A stretch of 64,000 nucleotides of DNA from Arthrobacter tumbae (GTDB taxonomy: Bacteria; Actinomycetota; Actinomycetes; Actinomycetales; Micrococcaceae). Shown here in pieces: positions 2,067 to 60,197 of the stretch (positions within the stretch are counted from its first letter, which is position 1; each line of letters starts with the position of its first letter). Below the pieces are notes generated by a model. That model saw only the letters and a program-made list of their open reading frames with translations, ran no database searches and was not told the origin of the DNA. Made by a program: the position numbers and the translations under genes. The stretch covers positions 2,790,001-2,854,000 of the forward strand of contig NZ_JAFBCC010000001.1 in the NCBI RefSeq assembly GCF_016907495.1, in the 5' to 3' direction.

Positions 2067-2094
2067 GGGGAAAGCTCCTGGATTGCGCTCGACA

Positions 2095-2141
2095 GTAGAC
2101 ACTGCCGACCAGGCTTCCCGGCTCACCGCTACCCAGTCTAC
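2095..2141 (-). ncRNA. Candidate riboswitch-like leader of nhaA copy 1
   Basis: Read on the minus strand, a GTAGAC...GTCTAC outer helix encloses the core GGTGAGCCGGGAAGCCTGG followed by TCGGCAGT. The GCCG/CGGC inner stem closes a GGAAGCCTGGT loop. The same core with two substitutions precedes nhaA copy 2 at 58622-58661, where a different pair of sequences forms the outer helix. The element ends about 28 nt before the start codon, placing the ribosome-binding site just 3' of it. Conservation, covariation and position support a cis-regulatory RNA. The described nhaA-I and nhaA-II motifs (Li+ riboswitches) are candidate relatives, but I cannot confirm a match from memory. Confidence 0.6.
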
Positions 2142-2187: not shown

Positions 2188-3699
2188 CTAGTGCCCGGCT
2201 CCGAGCTTCCCGGCGAGCCGTTCGCGCATGAGCACTGAGGCGTCGTTGAGTCCGATGACCTCCACGTCCTTGCCGTGGGAATGGTACTTCTCCGTGATGG
2301 CGTCCAGCGCCGCAATGGTCGAGGCATCCCAGAGGTGCGAGGCGTGCATGTCGATGATCACCCTGTCCGGGTCCATCGCATACTCGAACTGCGTGTAGAG
2401 GTCGTTGGACGATGCGAAAAACAGCTCGCCGTCCACCACGTACCTCGCCACCTCTTCGCCGTTCGGCTCGATCACCGTCCGTTCCACAGTGACGAAGTGC
2501 GCCACCCGCCGGGCGAATGCAATCATCGCCACCAGCACACCCACGCCGACGCCGATCGCGAGGTTGTGCGTCCACACCACAACGACGACGGTGCTCACCA
2601 TCACCGCGGTCTCGCTCTTGGGCATCCGCTTCAGTGTTGAGGGCTGGATACTGTGCCAGTCGAAGGTCGCGATCGACACGAAGATCATCACGGCCACCAG
2701 CGCTGCCATCGGAATGATCGCCACAATGTCCCCGAGGGATACCACGAGGATCAGCAGGAAGACGCCGGCAAGGAAGGTCGAAATGCGGGTGCGGGCACCG
2801 GATGCCTTCACGTTGATCATGGTCTGCCCGATCATGGCGCAGCCGCCCATACCGCCGAAGAAGCCGGTGATGATGTTTGCTCCGCCCTGGCCCCAGCTTT
2901 CCCGCGTCTTGTTGGACCGGGTGTCGGTGATGTCGTCGACCAGCTTCGCGGTCATCAGGGATTCCAGGAGACCGACCAGTGCCAGCGCCAACGCGAACGG
3001 CGCGATGATCTCGAGCGTCTCCAGGTTCAGCGGAACGTTCGGGAAGAACAGGCTGGGGAAACTGTCCGGCAATTCACCCTTGTCGCCGACGTTAGGGACC
3101 CGGACCGAGGCAAGGACAGCGAAGAGGGTCAGCGCAACAATCGCGACCAGCGGCGCCGGAACAACCTTGGTCAGCCGGGGCAGACCGAACACGATCAGCA
3201 GGCCCACCGCAACCATGGGGTACACCAGCCACGGCACACCAATCAGCTCAGGAACCTGCGACATAAAGATGAGAATGGCAAGGGCGTTGACGAACCCGAC
3301 CATGACCGAACGCGGGATGAAGCGCATGAGCTTCGCCACTCCAAGCAACCCCAGCGCTACCTGGAAGATACCGCCCAGGATCACTGCGGCAATGAAATAG
3401 TCGACGCCGTGGCTCGCCACCAGCGGCGCGATCACGAGGGCGACGGCGCCTGTCGCCGCTGAAATCATCGCCGGCCGCCCGCCGAGGAACGCAATCGAGA
3501 CGGCCATGGTGAAGGACGCGAAGAGTCCCAGCCGGGGGTCCACTCCGGCGATGATGGAGAAAGCAATCGCTTCAGGGATCAGGGCAAGCGCAACCACCAG
3601 CCCGCCCAGCACCTCGACCTTCAGCAGCCTGGGGTTCTTCAGCGTTCGAAGAACCGACTGGCGTTCAATCGGCGTAAGGGCAGTGGTGGACCTGGGCAT
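2188..3699 (-). CDS. SulP family anion transporter with STAS domain
   Basis: A 503-aa permease of the SulP (SLC26) family, which moves sulfate, bicarbonate or other anions. The N-terminal half has the family segment [17 protein letters not shown] and about ten to twelve hydrophobic helices, including [14 protein letters not shown]. The last ~110 residues form a cytoplasmic STAS domain ([19 protein letters not shown]). ATG start at 3699 is preceded by GAAGGAAT. It is divergent from prfC and lies upstream of nhaA copy 1 on the same strand; co-transcription is possible but the nhaA leader would lie within such a transcript. The substrate cannot be told from sequence; no carbonic anhydrase gene is adjacent. 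Confidence 0.9.
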
Positions 3700-58600: not shown

Positions 58601-58621
58601 GAGCGGCTCCTTCAGGGCAGG

Positions 58622-58661
58622 AAAAATTACTGCCGACCAGACTTCCCGGCGCACCATTTTT
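58622..58661 (-). ncRNA. Candidate riboswitch-like leader of nhaA copy 2
   Basis: Minus strand: AAAAAT-GGTGCGCCGGGAAG then TCTGGTCGGCAGT-A-ATTTTT. Same core as the copy 1 leader (25 of 27 positions), but the outer helix is AAAAAT/ATTTTT instead of GTAGAC/GTCTAC. The 3' strand of the helix is separated by about 11 nt from AAGGAG, so ligand binding could affect the ribosome site. Confidence 0.6.
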
Positions 58662-58847
58662 TAAAACCCTAGCAGGGGAGCCCTCCGCGGGTGACGCGCG
58701 TTACTCAGGCGGTGACCAGAGCCGCTGCATGCGACGACAGCGTCCGGGCCGGTAAGTTGGTTCGTGACAAATTCACGTGTGGCCATCTCCACGGAACCAA
58801 CGACCTCACGCTTGACCTGGGCCGAGACTTCACGAAAGGAACCGAGC

Positions 58848-60197
58848 ATGGAAGGTGATTCCCCATCCAGGAGTGAACAGAAATTATCCCTGACAGGGTC
58901 CGTAGCGCTGGGCACCGGTGTGATGATCGGTGCCGGCATCTTCGCCCTCGTGGGCCAGGTCGCTGAACTGACCGGTGGTTGGGTTCCCTGGGCGTTCTTC
59001 GCCGGTGCCGTGGTCGTGGCATTCAGCTCCTACTCCTACATCCGCTACTCCGCTACCAACCCCTCCGCCGGCGGGATCGCCATGCTGCTCAAAGCCGCTT
59101 ACGGCCCCGGCGTGGTTGCAGGCTCGTTCTCCCTGTTCATGTACGTGTCGATGATTCTGGCCGAAAGCCTGCTGGGCCGCACCTTCGGTACCTACCTGTT
59201 GCGGCCTTTCGGGATGCAGGACTCCGCGCTGTGGGTGCCGGTACTGGCCGTTGTAGCCATTGCGGCCGCAGCGCTGGTGAACCTCGTCGGCAACCGGTGG
59301 GTGGAGCGCTCCGCCACGGTGACAGCGGCGATCAAGATCATCGGAATCGCAGTCCTGGCCGTCGCCGGAATCCTAGCCGCCGGGGCCTCCTCCCTGGGAC
59401 GGTTGTTCACCGCCGCGGAGCGGACCCCGCCGGAGGCAGGGTGGCTTGGTTTTCTGGCTGGAGTAGCTTTGTGCATCCTGGCGTATAAAGGCTTCACCAC
59501 CATCACCAATCAGGGGGCGGATCTGCGCGACCCCAAACGCAACATCGGCCGGTCCATCATGATCGCCATCGGGCTATGCACCGTTCTCTACCTGCTGATC
59601 ACCGTCGCGGTGACAGGCAGCCTCACCGTCGCGCAGATTGTGGAGGCCCGGGATTACGCCCTCGCCGAGGCGGCCCAGCCGACGTTCGGGTCCTGGGGTG
59701 TGACGTTGACCGTGGTGATCGCCGTCGTCGCCACACTCTCCGGGCTGGTGGCCAGCCTATTCTCGGTCTCCAAGCTCTACGACATGCTCCGAAACATGGG
59801 CCAGGCCCCTGGCCTACCGGGGAAGGAGGGGCACCAATCACTGTTCATCACTGCGGGGTTGGCCATTGTCATGGCCGCCTTCTTCGACCTGTCCCAAATC
59901 GCTGCCCTCGGCGCCATCCTCTATCTGGTCATGGATATCGCCATCCACTGGGGCATCATCCGGCACGTTAGAAGCGACGTCGAAGCAAAAACCTGGATCC
60001 CCTGGACTGCGATCGTGCTCGACATCGCCGTCCTCGTGCCCTTCACGATCCTCAAAGCACAGTCGGACCCGTTCACCGGAATCACCACCGTGGTGGTGGC
60101 TTCGATCATCGTCCTGACACAGTGGCTGGTGGTCCGCCGTAGGAACCGCGATGGTGAACCTTCGCGGGAAACCCCCGCCCAACACCACTCCGAATAA
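58848..60197 (+). CDS. APC-family amino acid permease
   Basis: A 449-aa permease with about twelve helices; N-terminal VALGTGVMIGAGIFALVGQV is the APC consensus for helix 1 with its unwound GAGIF. Other segments: CILAYKGFTTITNQGADL and SKLYDMLRNMGQAPGLP. ATG 58848 with AAAGGAACC upstream is preferred over the GTG at 58764. Divergent from nhaA copy 2 with 247 bp between starts, containing the nhaA leader. Substrate not predictable. Confidence 0.9.
   Translation: MEGDSPSRSEQKLSLTGSVALGTGVMIGAGIFALVGQVAELTGGWVPWAFFAGAVVVAFSSYSYIRYSATNPSAGGIAMLLKAAYGPGVVAGSFSLFMYVSMILAESLLGRTFGTYLLRPFGMQDSALWVPVLAVVAIAAAALVNLVGNRWVERSATVTAAIKIIGIAVLAVAGILAAGASSLGRLFTAAERTPPEAGWLGFLAGVALCILAYKGFTTITNQGADLRDPKRNIGRSIMIAIGLCTVLYLLITVAVTGSLTVAQIVEARDYALAEAAQPTFGSWGVTLTVVIAVVATLSGLVASLFSVSKLYDMLRNMGQAPGLPGKEGHQSLFITAGLAIVMAAFFDLSQIAALGAILYLVMDIAIHWGIIRHVRSDVEAKTWIPWTAIVLDIAVLVPFTILKAQSDPFTGITTVVVASIIVLTQWLVVRRRNRDGEPSRETPAQHHSE

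Follow-up and report, generated by a model that had tools for sequence, protein, structure and literature searches.

The regulatory RNAs closest to the element described here are the nhaA riboswitches, leader RNAs with a conserved core that are reported to turn on expression when Li+ is present (White et al., 2022; PMC9646797). In the available text of a second report, variants of nhaA-I are proposed as a Na+-II class, and the DUF1646 motif (Na+-I) is described as having two extended helices, P1 and P2, that carry conserved bases at the bottom of the former and in the loop of the latter, and as comprising 308 representatives, for which Firmicutes, Proteobacteria, Acidobacteria, and Verrucomicrobia are named (White et al., 2022; PMC9337991). 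Few sensors are known through which Na+ controls bacterial gene expression: the same report states that such sensing had previously been shown for a single protein, and itself describes one riboswitch class (PMC9337991). A further candidate, the nqrA-II motif, resembles the present element in being an unvalidated leader RNA that precedes a sodium-transport gene and for which Na+ or a related ligand is proposed, but differs in being described from five genera of the Pasteurellaceae, with four stem-loops and 36 representatives (PMC11109978). The word Actinobacteria is absent from the main text of both the Li+ and the Na+ riboswitch papers (PMC9646797; PMC9337991), and nhaA is not mentioned in the available portions of two surveys of candidate RNAs (PMC11109978; PMC8632094). 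Searches of the open-licence PMC literature returned no description of an actinobacterial nhaA leader RNA or of this element, and four core strings of 13-16 bases did not occur among the papers listed, in which just a 9-base word was matched.

Within the 64,000-nucleotide stretch of Arthrobacter tumbae DNA analysed here (the window), each of two nhaA genes is preceded by a copy of one short element (Table 1). A first-pass annotation, made from the letters alone, had pointed to a 27-base core common to both and to GCCG/CGGC complementarity within it; the two copies (GGTGnGCCGGGAAGYCTGGTCGGCAGT), both on the minus strand, are indeed identical at 25 of the 27 positions, and the complementarity is as first described. 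When up to three mismatches are allowed, the 19-mer GCCGGGAAGYCTGGTCGGC is found at two places in the window only, both before nhaA (chance mean 0.09). Upstream of nhaA copy 1, in the same orientation, is a gene for a SulP-type permease (2188-3699, minus strand); a gene for an amino-acid permease (58848-60197, plus strand) diverges from nhaA copy 2. The same genome holds a third, altered core outside the window (L288, G000:C1:3329297-3329320), reading GGTGTG-CGGGAAGTCTGGTCGGCA, in which one P1 base is missing; a TAAACT box precedes it by 13 bases. Judged by eye, a short open frame and then a universal-stress-type protein come after this core, whose leader is similar to the one before nhaA copy 2.

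Table 1. Coordinates of the two leader copies and their nhaA genes in the window.
Feature	Position	Strand	Basis and remarks
Leader-RNA core, copy 2 (putative)	58631..58655	-	GGUGCGCCGGGAAGUCUGGUCGGCA; covariance model R1, 44.3 bits; exact 19-mer
Helix P1, copy 2 (predicted)	58650-58647 with 58635-58632	-	
-10-like box TAGGGT, copy 2	58666..58671	-	Sequence; begins 16 bases before GG of core; putative promoter
Core-to-nhaA leader, copy 2 (putative expression platform)	58601..58630	-	Sequence
Shine-Dalgarno GGAG, copy 2 leader	58607-58610	-	Sequence
nhaA copy 2 (Na+/H+ antiporter), 448 aa	57254..58600	-	PF06965, 436 bits
Leader-RNA core, copy 1 (putative)	2103..2127	-	GGUGAGCCGGGAAGCCUGGUCGGCA; covariance model R1, 42.8 bits; exact 19-mer
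-10-like box TAGACT, copy 1	2135..2140	-	Sequence and spacing statistics; begins 13 bases before GG
Core-to-nhaA leader, copy 1	2067..2102	-	Shine-Dalgarno AGGAG at 2075-2079
nhaA copy 1, 470 aa	654..2066	-	PF06965, 430 bits

The first-pass annotation had left open whether these leaders belong to a known nhaA-associated class or to a distinct one, and had proposed a comparison with the Rfam models of nhaA-I, nhaA-II, and DUF1646. At the gathering score, Rfam 15 matched nothing at the element in the whole window or in 16 relatives, where its two matches, a tRNA and Ms_IGR-5, both lie away from the element; at E <=10 there was no relevant match in four leaders (both window copies and two relatives). 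The actinobacterial sRNA family Ms_IGR-5 is matched at L142:483-738 (minus strand, 88.6 bits), approximately 1.4 kb from the core. Membership in either Li+ class was rejected on the unmatched nhaA-I and nhaA-II models, and membership in DUF1646 on the unmatched model together with the presence of one conserved 4-bp helix only, rather than a P1-P2 architecture. With the Li+ riboswitches the element shares its position before nhaA and its character as a leader RNA with a conserved core, although it does not match their models and no actinobacterial members are named in the available text on that class (PMC9646797). With DUF1646 and Na+-II it shares a mixed set of Na+ transport genes, but where extended helices are described for DUF1646 it has one 4-bp helix and an 11-base loop (PMC9337991). 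An undetected member of a known Li+ or Na+ class (nhaA-I, including the Na+-II variants, nhaA-II, or DUF1646/Na+-I) would account for the likeness in downstream genes, since nhaA and further cation transporters follow those RNAs too (PMC9646797; PMC9337991), and the Rfam comparison used no separate model for the Na+-II variants; in view of the unmatched models, and of the lack of Actinobacteria among the phyla named in the available text for DUF1646 (PMC9337991), such membership is very improbable. Of the two options first raised, that of a distinct, functional leader RNA is supported and that of membership in a known class is not.

Comparison across genomes yielded a 25-base consensus, GGnGHGCCGGGAAGYCUGGUCGGCR. 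Its exact 19-base part is present in 217 of the 295 genomes examined from the family to which the window belongs, representing 26 of 32 genera, with the reversed control absent from the family-genome matches listed; an exact 18-base part was found in 65 of 296 genomes sampled from the whole phylum (reversed control, 0), with up to nine core copies per genome. One 9.7-Mb genome (G437) carries nine, including two tandem pairs just 325 and 504 bases apart. A 24-base pattern with at most two mismatches matches 100 of 148 genomes of the class, the control giving six matches in all, and a covariance model built from the core detects 55 of 198 phylum genomes at E <=0.001. In a scan of named genomes at least 119 loci with the core were found, and 78 of the 80 titled loci listed are Actinomycetota by title (Micrococcales, Streptomyces, Amycolatopsis, Nocardia, Geodermatophilus, Frankia, Solirubrobacterales, and others). 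The other two are a Rhizobium match without GGnGnG and a Chloroflexi metagenome bin (L101), the latter being the sole non-actinobacterial locus with a full GGnGnG core among the 80; there the core precedes a protein with a weak amino-acid-permease match, and transfer or mis-binning is possible. Viral contigs, searched as a test of phage carriage, gave no match to the exact 24-base pattern, and a genus search with three mismatches was too loose for use, its reversed control matching almost as often.

All sets of sites begin from exact-match patterns, such that invariance inside the pattern is built in and only positions outside it constitute evidence. From 212 sites, 188 non-redundant ones were taken, removal at flank identity >=60% being the sole correction for relatedness in all tests. 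When the first C of CCGGG is numbered 0, G stands at -6, -5, -3, and -1 (GGnGnG) in 210 of the 212 sites, the other two, which look like chance, having been dropped; positions -6, -5, and -3 are absent from all fetching patterns. Among the 188 sites, position -4 is U in 81%, position 8 is U (152) or C (36), and position 18 is a purine in 90%. A -10-like TAnnnT box begins between -23 and -17 in 141 of the 188, mostly at -19, corresponding to the 13-base distance of window copy 1, the commonest spacing among sites. Given the usual distance of 6-8 bases, transcription is predicted to start at about the GG of the core; the start codon follows the core by a median of approximately 38 bases (159 sites).

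Such a tight usual spacing from the -10 box would also be expected of a promoter-proximal operator, and a rival explanation is that the core is a DNA site for a repressor overlapping the transcription start, with GCCG/CGGC as the site of a protein dimer. The start of the core at about the expected transcription start in most sites is as this explanation predicts. Against it, a TARNVT box beginning at -47 to -31 is present in 16 of the 47 sites without a near box vs. 3 of the 141 others (Fisher p ~1e-8), which indicates that the core is not tied to +1; 13 of these 16 far-box sites precede nhaA, and eight carry a Streptomyces title. If the predicted promoters are correct, some cores thus probably lie 12-28 bases deeper in the transcript.

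The evidence for an RNA helix lies in variation of the stem. The predicted helix P1 joins G-1, C0, C1, and G2 with C14, G15, G16, and C17, giving 4 bp over an almost invariant 11-base loop, preceded by GGnG. As the searches above demanded exact letters, variation in P1 was sought with looser patterns. Among the 15 two-mismatch matches listed, from the 24-base search that gave six control matches, both changes fall in P1 in four, where they always compensate each other (C0U with G16A in two, C1U with G15A in two); another five, of which some are probably chance matches, carry a single P1 change without compensation, and the rest are changed outside P1; of the 12 one-mismatch matches listed, two break a P1 pair. 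Free-stem patterns in which C0 or C1 was forbidden, each applied to 394 genomes, gave 36 and 37 matches, of which five and two, respectively, keep a fully Watson-Crick-paired P1 with altered letters; the remaining matches are mostly chance, since the reversed controls gave 23 and 15. All six distinct P1 variants have a TAnnnT box exactly 13 bases before the GG, a feature not demanded by the search, whereas none of 36 other non-canonical 25-mers has one at 13 and one has it at 18. An alignment (A3) of 30 of the 40 canonical 25-mers and the six variants shows changes on both sides in six cells (0 of 500 shuffles) and has a covariation score of 0.156 vs. a shuffled mean of 0.079, both values depending on variant rows picked for an intact P1; one locus (L275), which forms four pairs when G.U is counted, was excluded because neither G at -1 nor a -10 box is present. 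As the complete pairing in A3 arises by construction from this selection, the counts from the looser searches are the fairer measure. Covariation nonetheless supports P1 as a helix, with six distinct compensated variants found in other genomes. The same compensatory changes would likewise preserve the dyad of an operator.

The first-pass annotation had placed covariation elsewhere, in an outer helix pairing GTAGAC with GTCTAC in copy 1 and AAAAAT with ATTTTT in copy 2, and had argued from it for a functional RNA. This outer helix is not supported by any flank test. In copy 1 its 5' arm covers the -10-like TAGACT (2140-2135), upstream of the predicted transcript, and in copy 2 the arm is 8 bases nearer the core and is thus not part of the same helix. 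Across the 188 sites, the longest flank pairing averages 4.91 bp vs. 4.83 when partners are swapped between sites, pairing of 6 bp or more occurs in 53 sites vs. 48.5 expected, and fixed-offset tests at the two offsets give 2.62 vs. 2.46 and 2.44 vs. 2.32 pairs. The argument from covariation therefore has to be moved to the inner GCCG/CGGC helix, where the covariation is real. The annotation had also held that absence of the outer helix from most genomes, together with conservation of the core as a protein operator, would count against an RNA; that helix is indeed absent from most genomes, while the remaining evidence favors an RNA over an operator.

Part of that evidence comes from the non-Watson-Crick neighbors of P1, positions -2 and 18, which in the 188 sites are U.G in 69, C.A in 52, A.A in 22, U-A in 13, A.G in 11, and others in 21, with C-G in only two of the last. 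The two positions vary together (chi-square p ~1e-18, relatedness not corrected), and both main combinations occur inside Streptomyces (U.G in nine and C.A in six of 19 sites) and inside named Micrococcaceae (three and two of five). A U.G wobble and a protonated C.A wobble are alike in shape. Consequently, alternation between them is how a conserved RNA pair would behave, and a DNA dyad would be expected to give C-G and T-A; an operator offers no rule by which C-G would be avoided at these positions.

Genes downstream of the core were called with a GC3-based caller, which found one for 185 of the 188 sites, and nhaA is the first gene in 121 of the 188. As to orientation, nhaA lies downstream in sense in 114 of 170 sites and upstream on the other strand in 0 of 170, and the working in either orientation that might be expected of an operator was not found. 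Together with the conservation of the core and P1, this placement points to a conserved structured domain in the 5' leader, on the sense strand only. Pfam scans covered 41 of the 64 first genes other than nhaA, and 19 of the 41 fall into families linked with ion transport: ten Na_H_Exchanger proteins, two P-type cation ATPases, one each of an MrpA type, a membrane pyrophosphatase, TrkH, a TrkA-N domain, and a Na/Ca exchanger, one CitMHS/ArsB type whose cation role is uncertain, and one relative of the K+ importer KimA, on which Pfam is silent (PDB 6s3k, E 2.8e-27). The other 22 run against this theme, since none is a recognised ion transporter; they comprise three PEP-synthase-like proteins, an ABC ATPase, two CBS proteins, an alpha/beta hydrolase, PP2C, SpoIIE, an LCM methyltransferase, an acyltransferase, a glycosyltransferase, DUF2254, DUF6653, one weak, below-cut-off amino-acid-permease match, and seven proteins without a family. 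In some cases a transporter gene stands second, as where a CBS-domain protein is followed by a CitMHS/ArsB-type transporter (L106, L119, and also L175, with CBS judged by eye) or an alpha/beta-hydrolase-like gene, likewise judged by eye, by nhaA (L182).

Several arrangements among these loci deserve mention in their own right. Two cores facing away from each other, approximately 140 bases apart, are found in L112 (3653- and 3808+), with TrkH on one side, and in L166 (1278- and 1417+), with an ABC ATPase and a PEP-synthase-like gene. The core precedes PEP-synthase/pyruvate-phosphate-dikinase-like genes (PPDK_N) in L130, L155, and L166, with no obvious link to sodium, and ABC-type transporter ATPases in L005, L036, L075, L114, L143, L166, and L208; in the three ATPases checked, the best match is NCBIfam drrA, below its cut-off. 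These ATPases may be unrecognised Na+ exporters of the NatA type.

A coding explanation, in which the core belongs to an N-terminal extension of NhaA or to a leaderless upstream frame starting at GTG, was suggested by the nhaA frame, which is open through core and leader in both window copies (positions 58657 and 2327), and by the not quite even distribution of frames in 159 sites (68/49/42). As these frames are open, automatic annotation may call starts that are too early, thereby hiding the RNA; the in-frame ATG at 58657, before the copy 2 core, is not a likely nhaA start. An in-frame stop is present in 49 of the 159 sites and the frame relative to the gene is not fixed, and on these grounds a coding or upstream reading frame was rejected. 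Moreover, the variants GGAGAG and GGGGCG lack GTG, the U/C change at position 8 would alter an amino acid in the GTG frame, and a Shine-Dalgarno (SD) sequence stands before the downstream start, all of which makes a coding function hardly credible.

The leader between core and gene provides a further line of evidence. A recognisable SD sequence is present in 159 of the 188 sites, of which 139 have a leader of at most 80 bases and 131 one of at most 70. The 7-base complement of GGUCGGC, in the 3' half of the core, occurs in 38 of the 139 leaders vs. 11.8 expected from dinucleotide shuffles (z 8.4), so that long complementarity to the core is confined to part of the leaders. Segments able to pair with the 3' half are enriched 7- to 10-fold, whether by Watson-Crick pairs (GCCGACC, 12 observed vs. 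1.6 expected) or with a required G.U pair (GUCGACC, 15 vs. 1.5), while GCCGGG and GUCUGG have fewer complements than the shuffles predict (8 vs. 21.1 and 14 vs. 31.6) and that of GGUGnG is enriched (39 vs. 24.9). Enrichment of Watson-Crick and G.U complements alike runs counter to an operator. Taken together, the sense-only placement of nhaA, the wobble rule, the variable distance from the promoter, and leader complementarity that includes G.U pairs argue for a leader RNA over a DNA operator, which we regard as improbable; on present sequence comparisons, the element is very probably a cis-acting structured leader RNA.

Leader pairing with the 3' half of the core excludes P1, and two mutually exclusive folds are therefore likely. 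In models of the lowest-energy fold, the core CCUGG of copy 1 pairs with CCAGG of the SD region, and the core CGGC of copy 2 pairs with a GCCG that shares one base, the last, with GGAG. Hardly any P1 is populated in the modelled free folding ensembles, and forcing it costs approximately 9-10 kcal/mol, in models that take no account of ligand energy or of folding during transcription. With P1 forced, predicted SD accessibility went down in 63 and up in 20 of 131 natural leaders, as compared with down in 40 and up in 44 of 130 shuffled leaders; another modelling run gave up in 17 and down in 58 of 131. Neither modelling run thus supported, on average, the simplest sodium-ON scheme, with the SD released once the core has folded; the tendency was the opposite one. 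As the sign of the modelled effect is uncertain, switching may go in either direction.

The mechanism we envisage begins with a small structured RNA domain that would lie at or near the 5' end of nhaA mRNAs, provided that transcription proceeds as predicted. Its 25-base core would act as the aptamer, and the leader of approximately 38 bases after it would contain the site of ribosome binding. The segment YCUGGUCGGC, which makes up the 3' half of the core, is needed for P1 and could alternatively pair with the leader; as the two folds share this segment and exclude each other, translation initiation could be switched, and the effect of the element would be on translation.

A different reading accepts the leader RNA as real but holds it to be bound by a trans-acting factor, whether an RNA-binding protein or a small RNA, instead of being an ion aptamer. 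The element is a small hairpin close to the 5' end whose loop hardly varies, its P1 is weak on its own in folding models, and its associated genes include K+ transporters and several non-transport genes, all as this reading would have it. However, a near-identical core throughout many actinobacterial families, in up to nine copies per genome, would need an equally widespread partner, and we know of none. The conservation of the core also seems above the usual need of a protein-bound hairpin. We therefore consider a trans-acting factor unlikely, if the most serious of the alternatives, and give a modest preference to an ion-sensing riboswitch, although the conserved core is small for an aptamer.

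As to what such a riboswitch would sense, K+ uptake rises with salt, and the combination of Na+ export with K+ uptake in the gene set is best explained by a common ligand linked to Na+. The ligand is probably Na+, with Li+ or another monovalent ion as the next candidates, Li+ because the known nhaA riboswitches sense it (PMC9646797). In kind, the element would be a new class within an established type, the ion-responsive leader RNAs, and not a new type of regulator. In its fullest form our proposal, offered tentatively and as close to an even proposition, is that the 25-base core defines an undescribed, phylum-wide riboswitch class of the Actinomycetota that senses Na+ and sets a sodium/potassium regulon; with the same reserve, this regulon would consist of nhaA together with CPA1/CPA2, Mrp, pyrophosphatase, Na/Ca exchanger, Trk, and KimA-like genes.

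If this proposal is right, it would add a very common and very small Na+ sensor in a phylum for which the available text of the reports on Li+ and Na+ riboswitches gives none (PMC9646797; PMC9337991). Such a compact RNA would also lend itself to the study of how RNA selects Na+ over K+. For the organisms themselves, many ion transporters whose regulation is unknown in Streptomyces, Arthrobacter, and their relatives would be joined in one salt response.
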